The notes under the pieces were generated by a model that saw only the letters and a list, made by a program, of their open reading frames with translations, searched no databases and was not told where the DNA came from. DNA of 64,000 nt from Veillonella rogosae JCM 15642. GTDB lineage: Bacteria; Bacillota; Negativicutes; Veillonellales; Veillonellaceae. Position numbers and translations under genes: made by a program. The stretch is taken from assembly GCF_002959775.1 (NCBI RefSeq), contig NZ_PPCX01000002.1:62001-126000 (forward strand). Direction: 5' to 3'. Position 1 is the stretch's first letter. Every line of letters starts with the position of its first letter. Below, in pieces: positions 7,428 to 23,649 of this stretch.

Positions 7428-8819
7428 ATGGAACGCAAATATGCATGGCATAATTACGACGATGCCACTATGGAAAAGGTATATGCCTTAAGTGATTCGT
7501 ATCGTCAATTTTTAGATAATGGTAAAACAGAACGGGAATGCGTAGTGCAGGCCGTAGAATTTGCAGAGGCAAAGGGCTATGTAAATCTTAAAGATATCAT
7601 TAAAAATAATACACCAATTAAGGCGGGGGATAAGATTTATTATACCTATATGGATAAATCTATTGCTCTCTTCAATATTGGTACAGATAATATCGAATTA
7701 GGTATGAACATTTTAGGTGCTCATATCGACTCTCCTCGTATTGACGTAAAACAAAACCCTCAATACGAAGATAGCAACCTTTTATTCTGGGATACTCACT
7801 ACTACGGCGGTATTAAAAAATATCACTGGGTAGCCATGCCTCTTGCCATTCATGGTGTTGTGGTAAAAACAGATGGAACTCGCATCAATATTAATATTGG
7901 CGATAAAGAAACTGATCCTGTATTCTGTATTACAGATTTGTTGCCTCATTTAGGGCAAGAACAAATGCAAAAGAATGCAGCTAAAGTAATTGAAGGGGAA
8001 GCTCTTGATTTACTCATAGGCAGTCGTCCAGTAAAAGATGAGGAAAAAGAAGGTGTTTCTAAATTTATTAATAACCTTCTTGAAAAAGAGTATGGCTTTG
8101 TTGAGCGTGACTTGTTATCTGCAGAGCTTGAAATTGTACCCGCAGGTAAGGCACGTGATATGGGCTTTGACCGCTCTATGGTAATGGCATATGGCCAAGA
8201 TGATCGCGTATGTGCCTATACATCCTTAGTGGCTATGCTTGAAGTAGATAATGTAAAACGTACTACTTGTTGCTTACTCGTCGATAAAGAGGAAATCGGT
8301 TCTGTAGGTGCTACGGGTATGCAATCTCGTTTCTTTGAAAATGCTGTAGCTGAAATTCTAACACTTATGGGTAAACCAAATTCTGTTAGCGTTCGTCGTG
8401 CATTGGAAAAATCTCGTATGTTATCTTCCGATGTTAGCGCTGGCTACGATCCACTTTATGCATCTGCGTATGAAAAGAAAAATGCTTCTTACCTTGGTAT
8501 GGGCGTAGTATTTAATAAATTTACAGGCTCTCGTGGTAAAGCTGGCTCTAATGATGCCAATGCTGAGTACATGGGCTTTATCCGTCGTGTTATGGAATCC
8601 AATAATGTAACGTATCAAACGGCAGAGCTTGGTAAGGTAGACCTCGGTGGTGGTGGTACAATTGCGTACATCATGGCACTTTACGGCATGAATGTTATCG
8701 ACTGTGGTGTAGCAGTTCTTAGCATGCATGCTCCGTGGGAGGTTACTTCTAAAGCCGATATTTACGAGGCTAAACAATGCTACGTGGCATTCTTAAATGC
8801 AGCTGATGAAACAATCTAG
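7428..8819 (+). CDS. M18 family aminopeptidase
   Basis: This 463-residue protein matches bacterial aspartyl-aminopeptidase-like enzymes. The two-metal site residues are in GAHIDSPR near 97-104, DDRVCAYTS near 257, DKEEIGSVGATG near 286 and SMHAPWE near 432. The enzyme should remove N-terminal residues from peptides in the cytoplasm. A GAAAGGA site precedes the ATG at a normal distance. A 70-base gap separates it from the exonuclease. The family's residue preference cannot be read from sequence. Confidence 0.93.
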   Translation: MERKYAWHNYDDATMEKVYALSDSYRQFLDNGKTERECVVQAVEFAEAKGYVNLKDIIKNNTPIKAGDKIYYTYMDKSIALFNIGTDNIELGMNILGAHIDSPRIDVKQNPQYEDSNLLFWDTHYYGGIKKYHWVAMPLAIHGVVVKTDGTRININIGDKETDPVFCITDLLPHLGQEQMQKNAAKVIEGEALDLLIGSRPVKDEEKEGVSKFINNLLEKEYGFVERDLLSAELEIVPAGKARDMGFDRSMVMAYGQDDRVCAYTSLVAMLEVDNVKRTTCCLLVDKEEIGSVGATGMQSRFFENAVAEILTLMGKPNSVSVRRALEKSRMLSSDVSAGYDPLYASAYEKKNASYLGMGVVFNKFTGSRGKAGSNDANAEYMGFIRRVMESNNVTYQTAELGKVDLGGGGTIAYIMALYGMNVIDCGVAVLSMHAPWEVTSKADIYEAKQCYVAFLNAADETI

Positions 8820-16384: not shown

Positions 16385-16740
16385 ATCAGGTGAGTTAAAT
16401 CACCAACATGTAGAACAGAAAGACTTAGGTTCTAACAGCAATCTTATAATATATATAGCTTAATAGAGATGAGTATAGAATCTAGTATAATTTAATAGTT
16501 ATCGTTCATAAACGATTCATAAGGTTAGACACTTGCAGCAATCCATTGATTAAATAACCAGAAAAAGTGATTTTGGAGACCTTTTGGTCTAGAGTATCGT
16601 GTCTAGTTAGCCTTAGCCTCAGTGAGGTTAGTAATTGTCTTGAACTTTGTATTGTAACCGCTCACGGTTGTCGTGTTTATTTTGTCTTCAAAATTTACGT
16701 TGTGATAATCCGGAGTGGTTTTTTATATGCTAAGGAGATA
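16385..16740 (+). ncRNA. Long untranslated leader of the Ro60-like gene, candidate ncRNA
   Basis: About 360 nt lie between the promoter's expected start site and the ATG at 16747. Several short hairpins can be read: GGTGA/TCACC (16389-16404), AGAAC/GTTCT (16412-16433), an AACG/CGTT-type repeat near 16501-16518, AGACC/GGTCT across TTTT (16577-16590), CCTCA/TGAGG near 16617-16626 and AACCG/CGGTT near 16656-16669. No internal terminator is obvious. Ro60-type proteins in bacteria bind Y RNAs often encoded nearby, so a Y-like RNA is possible, but I see no diagnostic Y RNA sequence. Confidence 0.35.
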
Positions 16741-16746
16741 GGAACT

Positions 16747-18363
16747 ATGAATACATTTATGGACGCTTTAACGAAAAATGAGAAATCTTATACTGCAAAT
16801 GATGGTACTGCATATCGTACGAGTGGTAGTAAATTAGTGGATCTTAATTTTTCTGTGCCTGCATTGCGCCAAGCGGCTGTTAATTTCTATGGTAAAGATG
16901 AACATAGTCGATACTTTTATGGTGAAGATTCGACTATGGATGCAGTAGAATCATTGCGTTTATTTATTACATCTTACGAGGAAGATCCTATTTATACCAT
17001 GAAATGGCTTATGTATGCCCGCCATATTAAGTTAGGACTTGGCGAGCGTGATGTATTTCGCATGATGCTTACAAAAGTCGGTGATTTGCATCCAGAGATA
17101 GCATTGCAATTTATCATCGGCACCGAGTTATGGAACTATGGTCGTTGGGATGATGTGCTACGCATCTATTTTGATACAACGAGTGGTATTTTACATGATG
17201 GACTAGGAGAGCTAATTGCCAATCAGTTTAGACGTGATGTTATAGGCTGTGGACTCGGCGATTCCATTAGCTTGTTAGCTAAATGGATGCCGTCCAATAA
17301 TACATCCTCTAAACAAAAACGTTCTGAGGCGGTTATTTTGCAATCCTTGTTACATCTAAGTGCACGAGAGTACCGTAAAACTCTGTCTAGATTGCGCGAA
17401 TATCTAGCGGTGGTAGACCGCAAGGCTTCTCTTAACCAATGGAACGATATTAATTATAATCATGTACCATCTAAAGCTAATCTTAAATATCGTCAAGCCT
17501 TTTTAAAACATGATGAAGAACGTCGTAAGGCCTATCTTACATCATTACAAAAGGGTGACAATGCTGTTAAAATTAATGCGAACTCTATGTTTTTGTATGA
17601 TATTGTACAAGCCTATATAGATAATAATAGTTGTTGGAGAAATGTTTTAAAACCGCATGATGAAACCTTAGAGCAATTATGGCATGCCCAAGAACCACCT
17701 AAGGATTATGACGATATTCTAGTCATACGAGATGGGTCTGGATCTATGGGGCAAATTCTATCTGGTAATAGTTATGTCACAGCACTTAGTGTAGCAGATT
17801 CGATTGCATTGTATTGTGCACAGCATAATAAGAATGAATCTTTTAAAAATCGATTGATTACCTTTAGTAATCGTCCAGAGATCGTTGATATTTCGATGTG
17901 TCAAACATTGAGGGATAAGTTAAGACGCTTACATCGATTTGACGATTATAGCAATACGGATATAGAGGCAAATTTTGACTTAATTCTAGACACAGCTGTT
18001 AAAAATCATCTGCGTCAAGAGGAACTGCCTTCATCGTGCCTTATTATTTCTGATATGCAGTTTGATCAAGCTACTCTGCATGAAGATAACACTACCGTTA
18101 TTGAATCGTGTCGCCGGAAGTTTGAAGCCCTTGGGTATACTTTGCCACGGTTAATTTTCTGGAATGTATCTGTCTATGCACATAATACTATTCCTGTACA
18201 AGTGCATCCGAGCGGTGTTATCCTCGTATCTGGTTTCTCGAAAGCAATCGTAGATATGGTAGTATCTAGAGAACTCGATCCTGAAACGGCACTTAAAGCT
18301 GAGCTAGATGCAAAGTGTAGTATTGTAGATACAGTACTACAAGACTATGTAAAGGTAGCGTAA
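16747..18363 (+). CDS. DUF2828 protein, Ro60/TROVE-like with vWA domain
   Basis: The 538-residue protein has an alpha-helical N-terminal part (about 1-310), including the MKWLMYARHIKLGLGERDVFR segment's family signature, and a C-terminal von Willebrand A domain. The MIDAS metal site is seen as D329-G-S331-G-S333, with Thr 404 and Asp 436 in the expected later positions. This arrangement resembles Ro60/TROVE RNA-quality-control proteins and fits DUF2828. Function is not established. The ATG at 16747 follows AAGGAGAT; in-frame codons 180 bases upstream lie within the leader and read as non-coding. It sits alone between two terminators. Confidence 0.8.
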   Translation: MNTFMDALTKNEKSYTANDGTAYRTSGSKLVDLNFSVPALRQAAVNFYGKDEHSRYFYGEDSTMDAVESLRLFITSYEEDPIYTMKWLMYARHIKLGLGERDVFRMMLTKVGDLHPEIALQFIIGTELWNYGRWDDVLRIYFDTTSGILHDGLGELIANQFRRDVIGCGLGDSISLLAKWMPSNNTSSKQKRSEAVILQSLLHLSAREYRKTLSRLREYLAVVDRKASLNQWNDINYNHVPSKANLKYRQAFLKHDEERRKAYLTSLQKGDNAVKINANSMFLYDIVQAYIDNNSCWRNVLKPHDETLEQLWHAQEPPKDYDDILVIRDGSGSMGQILSGNSYVTALSVADSIALYCAQHNKNESFKNRLITFSNRPEIVDISMCQTLRDKLRRLHRFDDYSNTDIEANFDLILDTAVKNHLRQEELPSSCLIISDMQFDQATLHEDNTTVIESCRRKFEALGYTLPRLIFWNVSVYAHNTIPVQVHPSGVILVSGFSKAIVDMVVSRELDPETALKAELDAKCSIVDTVLQDYVKVA

Positions 18364-19186: not shown

Positions 19187-19190
19187 ATTA

Positions 19191-19292
19191 TTATTTACGG
19201 CTATTAAAAAATATCGTAATCATAATAGTAATGATTGCTACTATGAGCATAGAAAAATCTATCATTATAGATAGCGATTCATATGTTGTCAT
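19191..19292 (-). CDS. Putative holin-like type I toxin, 33 residues
   Basis: On the minus strand, AGGAGGTG stands eight bases before an ATG and opens a 33-codon frame. The peptide begins MTTYESLSIMIDFSML, has one hydrophobic span of about 17 residues and ends in NSRK. The TYESL-x-MI-F opening, single membrane helix and basic tail match the holin-like toxin family that includes B. subtilis TxpA and BsrG. It would insert into the membrane when translated. The ribosome site lies in a hairpin, and an antisense-oriented RNA overlaps its 3' end. The gene is easily missed because of its size. Confidence 0.8.
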   Translation of the reverse strand: MTTYESLSIMIDFSMLIVAIITIMITIFFNSRK

Positions 19293-19297
19293 AGCAT

Positions 19298-19315
19298 CAC
19301 CTCCTTACGGAGATG
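19298..19315 (-). promoter_or_regulatory. Hairpin that buries the toxin's ribosome site
   Basis: In the minus-strand mRNA, CATCTCC pairs with GGAGGTG across a GTAA loop: seven pairs with one G-T. The Shine-Dalgarno sequence is inside the 3' arm. Translation would be off until the RNA is processed or opened, as in other type I toxins. Confidence 0.6.
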
Positions 19316-19347
19316 AACCTAACTCACGTTATTTGACCCTTAAAGGT

Positions 19348-19356: not shown

Positions 19357-19393
19357 TGGATTATTCTGCTTGAGTATTACATTAGGAGTACTT

Positions 19394-20566
19394 ATGTATA
19401 AAAGAATTATTTTATTAGTTATGGACTCTGTTGGTATCGGTCACGCTGCTGATGCTGCAAAATTTGGTGATGAAGGTTCTAATACTTTGGGCCATATTGA
19501 ATCAACGGCTGGTCAGATTCATTGTCCTAATTTAAAATCTATTGGCTTAGGTCGCATTGCTGATATTTTTGATACTGGTGAAAGCATTAAAGGTGCTTTT
19601 GGCCGCATGGCTGAGCTTAGTACTGGTAAAGATACGACTAGTGGTCATTGGGAGATGATGGGGCATCCCGTTACCGTTCCATTCCCAACCTTTTATGAAG
19701 GTTTCCCAAAAGAATTAATGGATACTTTCACAAAAGAGACAGGCTATGGTTATCTTGGCAATGAAGTAGCATCTGGTACAGAAATTATTGAGCGTCTTGG
19801 GGCAGAGCACATCAAAACAGGTAGGCCTATTGTATATACCTCGGCAGATTCTGTATTCCAAATTGCTGCTCATGAAGATGTAATTCCTATCGATGAATTA
19901 TACCGTATTTGCCAAATTACCCGTGATAAGGTATGCATCGGTGATTACTATGTAGGTCGTATTATTGCACGTCCTTTCGTAGGTGAACTAGGTAGTTTTG
20001 TTCGCACCTCTAATCGTCATGATTATAGTCGTATGCCTGAGAAAAAGATGGTACCTCAAGAGCTACAAGATGCAAATATTCCAACTGTCGCTGTTGGTAA
20101 AATTGGAGATATTTATGCTCATGTAGGATGGGATGAAAGCTATCCAACAAAGACTAATTCCCATGGCATGAATATGGTTCCATACTTACTTGGTTCCTCC
20201 TTTGAGCGTGGTTTAATGATGGTTAATCTCGTTGAATTTGATAGCTTATATGGTCATCGCAGAAATGTAGAAGGATACAAACGAGCTATTGAGGACTTTG
20301 ATTATCAGCTAGGCGGCTTATTACAATTACTGAATGATGACGATTTACTACTCATCACTGCTGACCATGGTAACGATCCAACTTGGGAGGGAACCGATCA
20401 TACTCGTGAATTAGTACCAATTCTTGCTTATAGTCCACGTATTGATGGACCAATAGACCTTGGTGATAGAAAGAGCTTTGCTGATATTGGGGAAACTATA
20501 TTAGAAAACTTTAGTCTAAAACAATGGGGCATTGGTACATCGTTCTTAGATAAACTTAGTAAATAA
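19394..20566 (+). CDS. deoB: Phosphopentomutase
   Basis: This 390-residue alkaline-phosphatase-fold enzyme interconverts ribose 1-phosphate and ribose 5-phosphate (and the deoxy forms) in nucleoside salvage. The metal and phosphoryl sites are visible: MDSVGIGHAADA near the N-terminus, the KDTTSGHWEMMG segment that includes the phosphorylated Thr, and TADHGNDPTWEGTDH near the C-terminus. TAGGAG precedes the ATG at 19394; an in-frame codon 24 bases upstream lacks a site. The toxin promoter reads away from it just upstream. Confidence 0.96.
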   Translation: MYKRIILLVMDSVGIGHAADAAKFGDEGSNTLGHIESTAGQIHCPNLKSIGLGRIADIFDTGESIKGAFGRMAELSTGKDTTSGHWEMMGHPVTVPFPTFYEGFPKELMDTFTKETGYGYLGNEVASGTEIIERLGAEHIKTGRPIVYTSADSVFQIAAHEDVIPIDELYRICQITRDKVCIGDYYVGRIIARPFVGELGSFVRTSNRHDYSRMPEKKMVPQELQDANIPTVAVGKIGDIYAHVGWDESYPTKTNSHGMNMVPYLLGSSFERGLMMVNLVEFDSLYGHRRNVEGYKRAIEDFDYQLGGLLQLLNDDDLLLITADHGNDPTWEGTDHTRELVPILAYSPRIDGPIDLGDRKSFADIGETILENFSLKQWGIGTSFLDKLSK

Positions 20567-20714: not shown

Positions 20715-20837
20715 AATGCAGATATGATGGTAGCCATTGAACGTATTCGTGAAATTGGTGGGGGCTATGTTATTACAAGTGAAGGTAAAGTCGTAGAAGA
20801 ATTAGCCCTCGAAGTAATGGGGTTAATTACAAATTGA
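20715..20837 (+). pseudogene. Remnant of an adenine deaminase gene
   Basis: Forty codons read NADMMVAIERIREIGGGYVI and on through TSEGKVVEELALEVMGLITN to a TGA. This is the internal 'N-x-D-M ... GGG ... V-x-x-L-x-L-x-x-x-GL' block found near the C-terminus of adenine deaminase (Ade). There is no start, no ribosome site and nothing of the rest of the protein on either side, so it is a relic of a larger deletion. The region just after it, to about 20880, has no feature I can name. Confidence 0.7.
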
Positions 20838-20901
20838 CCACACAAATTACTACCACTGGTGTAATGGAGTTTTAGTATTTAGTGTAAGAAAAATATAATA
20901 G

Positions 20902-20999: not shown

Positions 21000-23204
21000 T
21001 TATAGTAAACCCTTATTTTCCATCATTTCTTTTATATTTAGTAAGGTGGATTTGCAAACTGCATCATATTCTAGTGTACTCAAGAAATCTGCAAATTTTC
21101 TATCATCTTCGTTTTTACAGTTTTCATAAGGAATTTTACCATTTTGTTGATATGGTTCTAGAATTCGATTTCGCCGGTACTTCCAAGTATTATAATAAGG
21201 ACCTTTAAATTTTGTCATAAAGCCATTGCTATCGACTAATACAAAGCCTTCAGACTCATGATATGAATTGAGTTCTTTATTTATGATGTTTGTCAGTTCG
21301 TCCATAGTATTTACTTGTTGAACTGTTTTTACAATAGATATCAACTGTGTATCATATTTCTTAAGGATGGAGTCTAGTTCTGCTAGCCTCTCCCTAGAGA
21401 AAGATACATCAATATGTTTACCATTTACATCTAGCGTATTTTGAATCATATCAAGTACATAAAGATGATCTTGGTCATATTTTATAATATGTGTATCTTC
21501 TTGGCTGATGACTTCAAACATCATAGAACAGCAATTACGTTTTAATAATTCTTTGATTTCTTCTTGTAGGCTTGTAGGTAATTTTTGGAATAAATTTTTA
21601 AACAAATCTACGTGCATACCTTCTGTAGTAGATTTAGAAGCAAAGACTAACTCATCATTAATGACACCAAGAATAGAAAGGTATCCATTTTCTTTAGTTC
21701 GAATTTCTACAGGAAAGGAGAGAGTATTAGCTAAATTATTTAACTCAGTTTCTGGTCGTTCATTGAGATTAAAGAATTTATTATAACTACGTAATTTTAC
21801 ATCTCCTGTCATACGATCCACAAATAATCCCCGAGCTTGTACTGTATTTTCATTCCATAATCGTTTGTGGAATACACGTGAGGTAAAGTTCAAGGAATAT
21901 AGGTTAGGGGAGCATTTTTTTACTTTTACTAATTTAGAATTACCTAAAATATTAATATCTTCATTTTGCGTGAAAATGACATATTGTGTCATGTTTTGGT
22001 ATTCATGGCGCATGTACTCTTTGTCGTACACATCATTTTTAATACCATTTTTAGTAAAAGCATCTGCAGTAATATCAATGTATTTGAGCTCTCCACCAAA
22101 CTCTACTTCGCCTTCTAAACAGAAGGAATATTTACCATCTGGAACACCACGATGACCATGAATTTGAATAAAGTTTTGACACATACCTTTTTCGTAATTA
22201 TTATCATATATTTTAGCAATATCTGTTTCGTAAGCTCCAAAACCATTTATAAAGGTAGAGGTAGCTATAAAGGTCATGTTAGGTACATAGGAAAGACCAG
22301 CATGGGATACTAAATACTTTTTGCCATGAAAGCTGAAAGGATAGCATTGACGAAGTGATTTATAAAAGAGGCGTAATTCTCGTTGAAGTGATTCTACATC
22401 TTTTTTTGTCATATCTTTTACGATAGGTGCCACTACTTCTTTCATAAATCGTTTGGAATGATTTAAGTTTGTATCGAATGCAAAGTTTGCAATATGTCGT
22501 TCGTGATTGCCTTCTAACATAATCGTATTAGGTAATGTGCTGAGGCGCATCATTTCATATATCATTTCTTTATTTTCAATACCGCGCTCCAAATAGTCGC
22601 CACAAAAGATATAAAGTGTTTTTTCATCCCATGGAGTGATAGCTTGTTGTAATGCCGTGTAACAGCCGTGAATATCACCGATGATACGTACTCGTTCATA
22701 TCGATTCGTTAAATTTACAGTAAAGTAATTGTTGATTTCATCGATAGAATTTATTTTCCTACAAAACTTTGGTAATGTAGTTGTTTTAATCATCTTGTGC
22801 ATGCGGTGTATAACTTGCTCAGGCACTCGTTTGTAATCTGTTCGTATAGCATTACGAGCTAAACATTCTTCTAATGATGTATCTGGTTCGTAGTAATATA
22901 CAGTATATTTATATTTGTTAAGCAATTCTTTATATGTATTAACAGCTTTAGATGTAGTGTGGGTAGCATCTAAAACGACAAAGTCGCCATTGCTCATTCG
23001 TTTCTCTAAGCAATCTAATAGGAGTTCCCAGGCCGGACCATTATCCTCTTGTGAAATATACCAGCCGCTTTCACCAAGGGAAGGGCTGCGTAATAGCATA
23101 CGGAAATGATCGGCTTCTAAGGTGTAAGCCTCAAGATTGTTGTCACGAATCCACTGAGACTTACCACTAGCAGGAGCACCACGCATTAATAATAGTGTTC
23201 TCAT
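21000..23204 (-). CDS. Polynucleotide kinase - metallophosphatase - Rnl1-type RNA ligase
   Basis: The 734-residue protein has three enzyme domains. Residues 1-160: a P-loop 5'-kinase with GAPASGKS at 9-16 and the D32/R35 pair like T4 Pnk. Residues 170-385: a calcineurin-like phosphatase with GDIHG 176-180, GDYLERG 202-208, GNHER 232-236, HAG 301-303 and HGH 349-351. Residues 440-734: a nucleotidyltransferase RNA ligase with RG at 458-459, KFFNLNE 476-482 (a T4 Rnl1 feature), motif I KENG with Lys 504, FEV near 563, EGFVLV 652-657 and KFK 665-667. Together they could heal and seal a cleaved RNA such as a tRNA. It stands alone on the minus strand, with AGAGGA before its ATG. All catalytic residues seem present. 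Confidence 0.88.
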   Translation of the reverse strand: MRTLLLMRGAPASGKSQWIRDNNLEAYTLEADHFRMLLRSPSLGESGWYISQEDNGPAWELLLDCLEKRMSNGDFVVLDATHTTSKAVNTYKELLNKYKYTVYYYEPDTSLEECLARNAIRTDYKRVPEQVIHRMHKMIKTTTLPKFCRKINSIDEINNYFTVNLTNRYERVRIIGDIHGCYTALQQAITPWDEKTLYIFCGDYLERGIENKEMIYEMMRLSTLPNTIMLEGNHERHIANFAFDTNLNHSKRFMKEVVAPIVKDMTKKDVESLQRELRLFYKSLRQCYPFSFHGKKYLVSHAGLSYVPNMTFIATSTFINGFGAYETDIAKIYDNNYEKGMCQNFIQIHGHRGVPDGKYSFCLEGEVEFGGELKYIDITADAFTKNGIKNDVYDKEYMRHEYQNMTQYVIFTQNEDINILGNSKLVKVKKCSPNLYSLNFTSRVFHKRLWNENTVQARGLFVDRMTGDVKLRSYNKFFNLNERPETELNNLANTLSFPVEIRTKENGYLSILGVINDELVFASKSTTEGMHVDLFKNLFQKLPTSLQEEIKELLKRNCCSMMFEVISQEDTHIIKYDQDHLYVLDMIQNTLDVNGKHIDVSFSRERLAELDSILKKYDTQLISIVKTVQQVNTMDELTNIINKELNSYHESEGFVLVDSNGFMTKFKGPYYNTWKYRRNRILEPYQQNGKIPYENCKNEDDRKFADFLSTLEYDAVCKSTLLNIKEMMENKGLL

Positions 23205-23348: not shown

Positions 23349-23609
23349 TTATAAAGCGTTTACTTTAGCTGCAAGGTTGGATTTTTTGCGAGCTGCAGTG
23401 TTTTTATGAAGTACACCTTTGGAGGCTGCTTTATCAATTACGCTAGTAGCATGAACAAGTGCTTGTTTTGCTTCTTCTACTGCGCCTGCTTGAACAGCTT
23501 CTACGGTTTTACGACTTGCTGTACGGATTTGAGATTTTACAGCGGCGTTTTTCGCACGACGTTCAGCATCCGTTTTTACGCTTCTAATACTGGATTTAAT
23601 GTTTGGCAA
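23349..23609 (-). CDS. rpsT: 30S ribosomal protein S20
   Basis: The 86-residue basic protein reads MPNIKSSIRSVKTDAERRAK and on, typical of S20, which binds 16S rRNA early in assembly. A TTG at 23609 is chosen as start because AGGAGG lies eight bases before it and S20 usually begins M-x-N-I-K. A GTG three codons upstream overlaps the ribosome site and is rejected. It is monocistronic, with promoter and terminator, and divergent from polA. Confidence 0.96.
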   Translation of the reverse strand: MPNIKSSIRSVKTDAERRAKNAAVKSQIRTASRKTVEAVQAGAVEEAKQALVHATSVIDKAASKGVLHKNTAARKKSNLAAKVNAL

Positions 23610-23649
23610 TTGAGTCACCTCCTTAAAAATCGTTTCTTATACCTGAATG

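Follow-up and report, generated by a model that had tools for sequence, protein, structure and literature searches.

The healing-and-sealing chemistry of RNA repair is known from T4 Pnkp and Rnl1, from the Pnkp-Hen1 system and from Trl1 (PMC3400036, PMC4411300, PMC7824862). Fungal Trl1 is a single trifunctional chain with an all-helical C-terminal ligase subdomain, LIG-C, that resembled no ligase structure known at the time; the Trl1 structure also holds a sulfate near the active site, bound by Arg334, Arg337 and His227 (PMC6592678). Trl1 joins ends that carry a 2'-phosphate, whereas T4 Rnl1 joins 2'-OH ends (PMC11494293). In T4, healing and sealing are divided between two proteins, and the phosphatase of T4 Pnkp is of the DxDxT (HAD) type (PMC3400036). 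In Pnkp-Hen1, the Clostridium thermocellum Pnkp is ordered like the protein described here, although its ligase domain is of another type. The baculovirus AcNPV protein Rnl/Pnk also unites a kinase, a phosphatase and an Rnl1/Trl1-like ligase in one chain, but its ligase comes first and its phosphatase is of the HAD type. Finally, the phage family phrog_8238, found in Twort-like, SPbeta-like, Fnu1 and other phages, has the same three domains in the same order and at the same length as the protein studied here. We found no biochemical study of this family in the papers searched, which covered the literature incompletely.

Here we describe a gene within a 64,000-nucleotide stretch (the window) of Veillonella rogosae JCM 15642 whose product combines healing domains of the Pnkp type with a ligase of the Trl1/Rnl1 type. 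We put at about 80% the probability that this product heals and seals RNA by three activities and descends from a phage enzyme, its gene now being stable in the chromosome of part of the genus Veillonella.

A kinase, a phosphatase and a ligase in one chain

The open reading frame has 734 codons and an ATG start and lies on the minus strand, a detail absent from the earlier note's description; the plus strand over the same interval holds only short open reading frames. The following features were assigned to it.

21000..23204, minus strand: gene for the 734-residue kinase-phosphatase-ligase protein (open reading frame; full-length phrog_8238 match over residues 1-726)
22725..23204, minus strand: P-loop polynucleotide 5'-kinase domain, residues 1-160 (Pfam AAA_33; fold match to 4gp7)
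23157..23180, minus strand: Walker A motif (P-loop) GAPASGKS, residues 9-16, with Lys15 invariant in the alignment
22002..22736, minus strand: calcineurin-type metallophosphatase domain for 3'-end healing, residues 157-401 (Pfam Metallophos; fold match to 4j6o)
21003..21971, minus strand: ATP-dependent RNA ligase, adenylyltransferase plus C-terminal helical domain, residues 412-734 (RNA_lig_T4_1; Trl1 fold match)
21693..21695, minus strand: Lys504 in KENG, the predicted covalent-AMP site, equivalent to T4 Rnl1 Lys99 and ctTrl1 Lys148 (alignments; invariant)
21489..21491, minus strand: His572, paired with ctTrl1 His227 near the bound sulfate (alignments; PMC6592678; invariant)
21171..21182, minus strand: Lys675 to Arg678, these two residues pairing with the sulfate-binding Arg334 and Arg337 of ctTrl1 (alignment; PMC6592678; invariant)

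The earlier note had read three active sites in one 734-residue protein, and this reading holds: all the domains and every motif that it named are present. The healing half carries GAPASGKS (residues 9-16), GDIHG (176-180), GDYLERG (202-208), GNHER (232-236) and HGH (349-351), and the ligase carries KFFNLNE (476-482) and the KENG that includes Lys504. In profile searches all three domains were matched above the curated Pfam cut-offs and far above chance, in the order AAA_33 (residues 4-137, E 2.2e-19), Metallophos (171-307, E 7.6e-10) and RNA_lig_T4_1 (456-671, E 1.2e-32). An AlphaFold2 model with a mean pLDDT of 89.2 resolved three separate folds, whose mutual placing is uncertain because the pTM is low (0.58).

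In the predicted structure, the healing half agrees with that of C. thermocellum Pnkp, whose kinase and phosphatase are its closest solved relatives. Residues 1-160 match the kinase structure 4gp7 over 152 residues (Z 18.6), and residues 157-401 match the phosphatase structure 4j6o over 222 residues (Z 22.1). The phosphatase is thus of the calcineurin type, unlike that of T4 Pnkp. As the earlier note had proposed, the ligase is unlike that of clostridial Pnkp; the NCBI Pnkp equivalog TIGR04075 reached 63.6 bits against a cut-off of 750 and matched residues 3-305 only.

The earlier note had named loss of catalytic residues in most orthologues as a result that would count against its reading. 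Instead, these residues are essentially invariant across 50 relatives. Lys15, Asp32, Arg35, Asp177, Asp203, Asn233, His234, His301 and His351 in the healing half, and Arg458, Lys476, Lys504, Gly507, Lys524, Glu564, Glu652, Lys665 and Lys667 in the ligase, never vary in the 50-member alignment. Three positions do vary: residue 16 is Ser or Thr, His179 is Gln in three members and His349 is Phe in ten. The Veillonella copies have Ser16, His179 and His349 together with all other catalytic residues, and in a bacterial-plus-phage set the catalytic residues are kept in 17 to 19 of 19. It is probable, judging from these sequences, that the Veillonella protein can trim, re-phosphorylate and rejoin broken RNA.

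A promoter scan of the gene gave no signal above that of shuffled sequences, and the PADLOC models of anti-phage defence did not match the protein. Rfam matches near the gene were all below threshold; one of them, to BsrG in the gap between a NUDIX gene and deoB (19190-19319, minus strand), scored 25.9 bits against a cut-off of 55 and is probably due to chance.

Proposed reaction and RNA substrate

Since the protein belongs with T4 Pnkp/Rnl1, Pnkp-Hen1 and Trl1, it would be expected to follow their healing-and-sealing chemistry. The substrate would be RNA cut by an endonuclease, most likely within the anticodon loop of a tRNA, so that one end bears a 2',3'-cyclic phosphate and the other a 5'-OH. 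At the first of these ends the phosphate would be opened and removed by the metallophosphatase domain, and at the second the kinase domain would phosphorylate the 5'-OH. Lys504 of the ligase would then be adenylated, the AMP passed to the 5'-phosphate and the ends joined. In this way the enzyme could counter tRNA-cutting toxins of neighbouring bacteria or of the cell itself, or limit self-damage. We infer catalysis, the end chemistry, the tRNA substrate and any role in countering defence nucleases or toxins that cut tRNA from these relationships.

The choice of tRNA as the putative substrate is suggested by the genes that accompany relatives of the enzyme. In Fusobacterium phage Fnu1 (131 kb) the ligase copy is followed, 0.9-1.5 kb downstream, by all five tRNA genes of the genome. 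Runs of tRNA genes stand next to other phage copies as well, and roughly one in four of the scanned viral loci has tRNAs within 4 kb, a count made without a general phage background. Thg1 is a neighbour of the ligase in seven phage loci and is also encoded by Fnu1. In addition, genome G249 has a three-gene group (L112, 3970-7718) in which a relative is preceded by KptA/Tpt1, ending 32 bp upstream of the ligase, and followed by a WYL-domain regulator. A rival reading is that the enzyme repairs other RNAs (rRNA, mRNA or small RNAs) after damage from stress or from the RNases of toxin-antitoxin systems. Ends of this kind are also produced by many toxins (PMC4411300), and the surroundings of the Veillonella ligase gene include no tRNase, no tRNA gene and no partner in repair; the locus itself holds no pointer to tRNA. 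However, the tRNA genes, Thg1 and KptA near relatives favour tRNA, as do the T4 and Pnkp-Hen1 precedents (PMC7824862), and we consider substrates of another kind rather unlikely.

Other RNA repair parts were also sought in the genus. No RtcB was found in the 14 Veillonella genomes and the V. rogosae genome has no second RNA_lig_T4_1 protein, and thus no redundant sealing enzyme was found. Hen1 methyltransferase and Tpt1/KptA likewise gave no match over the cut-off in the 14 genomes.

Several candidate partners were considered. KptA as a usual neighbour was rejected, being found at only one of 96 loci; the G249 trio has the appearance of a repair operon with 2'-phosphate removal and lies on a short contig. 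A PrrC-type nuclease was also rejected, as the only clear case in the genus (an AAA_13 protein at G004:C6:568200-570215) is in a genome that has no ligase. A recurrent neighbour of the ligase in viral contigs is a single protein cluster in loci L131, L173, L174, L177, L178, L179 and L181, of which the L131 member is Thg1 (tRNA-His guanylyltransferase). One further gene in the window was considered:

16567-18363, plus strand: DUF2828-DUF7788 protein, of a family often called 'RNA-binding protein' in phage records (664 phage records match)

A Ro/TROVE-like repair module made up of this protein and the ligase was rejected, since the presence of one gene is independent of that of the other across the 14 species, of which two have both (Fisher p = 1). 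Phage Fnu1 encodes a DUF2828-DUF7788 protein as well as the ligase.

Affinity of the ligase to fungal Trl1

The earlier note had described the ligase as of the T4 Rnl1 type. This stands for the Rnl1 family in the broad sense, of which the ligase is an intact member, but by sequence and by predicted fold it is nearer to fungal Trl1, especially in the C-terminal domain. The protein has the KFFN and the adenylyltransferase motifs I, III, IV and V of the Rnl1/RNA_lig_T4_1 superfamily, and KFFNLNE is identical in T4 Rnl1 and the Veillonella protein. The residues Arg458, Lys476, Lys504, Gly507, Lys524, Glu564, Glu652, Lys665 and Lys667 align with Arg54, Lys75, Lys99, Gly102, Lys119, Glu159, Glu227, Lys240 and Lys242 of T4 Rnl1, all of which are essential in T4 according to published mutagenesis. 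The T4 pair shares with the Veillonella protein a presumed task and these conserved motifs, including KFFNLNE and Lys99, but not the single chain.

Beyond the adenylyltransferase the resemblance to T4 ends. A profile search matched the Candida glabrata tRNA ligase (9qw7) with an E-value of 1.3e-35 and an alignment that took in the C-terminal domain as far as residue 727, compared with 2.6e-15 for T4 Rnl1 in a comparable search. In the predicted structure, residues 412-734 match the Trl1 ligase domain over 305 residues up to residue 734 (Z 25.6, rmsd 3.4), whereas the match to T4 Rnl1 covers 239-252 residues and ends at residue 680-701 (Z 23). On the T4 side, the aligned region ends at residue 252 by sequence and at residues 252-265 by fold. 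The comparison with T4 Rnl1 that the earlier note had suggested thus bears out the adenylyltransferase but not the T4 C-terminal domain, in whose place sequence and fold both indicate the helical domain of Trl1. By these two measures the ligase most resembles the corresponding domain of the fungal tRNA ligase, C-terminal helical domain included. The likeness does not extend to Trl1 as a whole, which has the order ligase-kinase-phosphodiesterase, a phosphodiesterase of the 2H type and a partner, Tpt1, that is absent from Veillonella; the order here is kinase-metallophosphatase-ligase.

This affinity raises the possibility that the end chemistry is also fungal, with a phosphatase that leaves the 2'-phosphate and a ligase that requires it, so that the junction would keep its 2'-phosphate or be cleaned by an unknown enzyme. 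The LIG-C similarity is consistent with this, as is the apparent operon of KptA/Tpt1 with the relative in G249. His572, Lys675 and Arg678, which are invariant in all 50 family members, correspond to the sulfate-site residues His227, Arg334 and Arg337 of ctTrl1 (PMC6592678) and form a candidate pocket for the phosphate; in the alignment, T4 Rnl1 has no His at the position of His572. On the other hand, Arg334 is replaced by Lys in the Veillonella protein, the phosphatase is of the Pnkp/calcineurin type and not the 2H phosphodiesterase of Trl1, and the 14 Veillonella genomes lack Tpt1/KptA. We therefore regard fungal-type sealing as unlikely. More speculative, and distinctly improbable in our view, is the proposal that the bacterium adopted a phage enzyme with Trl1-type sealing as its own tRNA rescue, working through 2'-phosphate ends without Tpt1, in which case no known prokaryotic protein would be closer kin to the fungal tRNA-splicing ligase than this phage family.

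The hybrid of a bacterial Pnkp healing module and a Trl1-type ligase offers a compact way to ask what separates 2'-OH from 2'-phosphate sealing. It also bears on where the nearest kin of the fungal tRNA ligase domain lies.

A phage family at a fixed chromosomal site in Veillonella

The fusion is an established phage gene, and the Veillonella enzyme, although real, is not unprecedented. The phrog_8238 profile, annotated 'RNA ligase', matched residues 1-726 to profile positions 1-727 of 737 (E 3.5e-177), and the active sites of all three domains are intact. Among 50,697 phage records searched with tblastn, 207 were matched and 112 of these had at least 80% coverage. Identity to the Veillonella protein was 44-45% in Fusobacterium phages, about 35% in Twort-like Staphylococcus phages, SPbeta-like phages and an Alicyclobacillus phage, and 27-28% in Lactobacillus phages; for the phage copies of phrog_8238 the range is 35-45%. 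Eighty IMG/VR loci each hold a full-length copy, and the gene is also found on some plasmid records. The phage copies have mostly been deposited as 'RNA ligase', 'polynucleotide kinase' or 'hypothetical protein'. One statement of the earlier note needs correction in this light. Phages do not use Pnk and Rnl1 only as separate proteins, given that at least 112 phage records carry the same fusion. Nor is the fusion a peculiarity of Veillonella, being common in large phages.

In an 87-member family tree the Veillonella copies form one clade (SH-aLRT 100), enclosed in a clade of 11 with two Fusobacterium phages, one IMG/VR contig and one Fusobacterium vincentii copy (SH-aLRT 100). The tree was made quickly and has long branches, and the share of phages in it is inflated because its viral members came from a collection of viruses. 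Transfer from phage to cell is the likeliest direction suggested by these sequences. Full-length copies outside Veillonella are rare among cellular genomes, with two more in 250 genomes of the class and one more in 398 genomes of the phylum. The F. vincentii copy lies among genes for cytidylate kinase, adenylosuccinate synthetase and a UPF0029 protein, and the copy in G386 is flanked by an EamA transporter gene, with lactate-utilisation genes beyond it, and by TetR/P450 genes. From these surroundings, chromosomal adoption seems to have occurred more than once.

While the phrog_8238 copies are borne by phages, the Veillonella gene lies at a conserved housekeeping locus. The neighbours in the window are as follows.

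23349..23618, minus strand: rpsT (ribosomal protein S20), the fixed upstream neighbour (Pfam; all seven carriers)
19370..20566, plus strand: deoB (phosphopentomutase), the fixed neighbour on the other side (Pfam Metalloenzyme; all 14 genomes)
20715..20846, plus strand: adenine deaminase gene remnant of 44 amino acids, 89% identical, between deoB and the ligase gene

Seven of the 14 Veillonella species genomes carry the gene, at 72-100% identity to the window copy, including V. parvula SKV38 and V. infantium T11011-4. A survey of the genus, as the earlier note had proposed, found the same site in all carriers but no gene in the other half of the species. The order deoB - ligase - rpsT - polA is kept in all seven carriers, with or without an adenine permease/deaminase pair on the deoB side, and the seven non-carriers have the same neighbours with the ligase cleanly absent. 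On the polA tree, parsimony requires at least three changes, for example one gain and two losses. Between carriers, dN/dS is 0.06-0.14 (with dS up to saturation), compared with about 0.03-0.05 for polA, which indicates purifying selection, though less tight than on polA. The GC content of the gene is 0.34 against 0.39 in its neighbours, with similar GC3. The fixed chromosomal site and the purifying selection support the earlier note's view that the gene is cell-owned; its absence from half of the species indicates that it is dispensable.

We also weighed the possibility that the gene came in recently as prophage cargo, or is what remains of a prophage, and serves a phage and not the cell. The family is mainly phage-borne, and in one carrier (G010, locus L056) the ligase gene, which is divergent, has on either side an imperfect direct repeat of 65 bp that corresponds to the 3' end and terminator of rpsT, such as integration might leave (about 8484-8550 and 10845-10905 of L056; score 28 against a shuffle maximum of 18); the repeat was not seen around the gene in the other six carriers. 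This reading is very improbable and is largely refuted by synteny, as the site is the same in seven species, at 72-97% identity to the window copy. Also against it, the gene is under purifying selection, no phage genes occur among the neighbouring housekeeping genes and an exact-peptide scan found no close copy on any IMG/VR contig. Scarcely credible is a role in DNA-end repair or nucleotide signalling: the predicted phosphatase fold also resembles ApaH and lambda phosphatase, and DNA too can be a substrate of Pnkp kinases and phosphatases, but the ligase falls in an RNA ligase family and no DNA ligase, nor any other family outside the RNA ligases, was a better match.

At this locus, human-associated commensals that lack RtcB and Hen1 have taken in a whole RNA-repair enzyme, most likely from a phage, and kept it stably. 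Because these two are missing from Veillonella, losing a single gene could test what RNA damage the cells meet, and such a gene-loss test is within reach since V. parvula SKV38 carries the gene.

The region between deoB and rpsT also differs among the genomes in other respects. A whole adenine deaminase gene stands at the place of the remnant in G008, G009, G010 and G012. In G002, G011 and G013, all of which are without the ligase, rpsT lies on the opposite strand directly after deoB, pointing to a local inversion or rearrangement.
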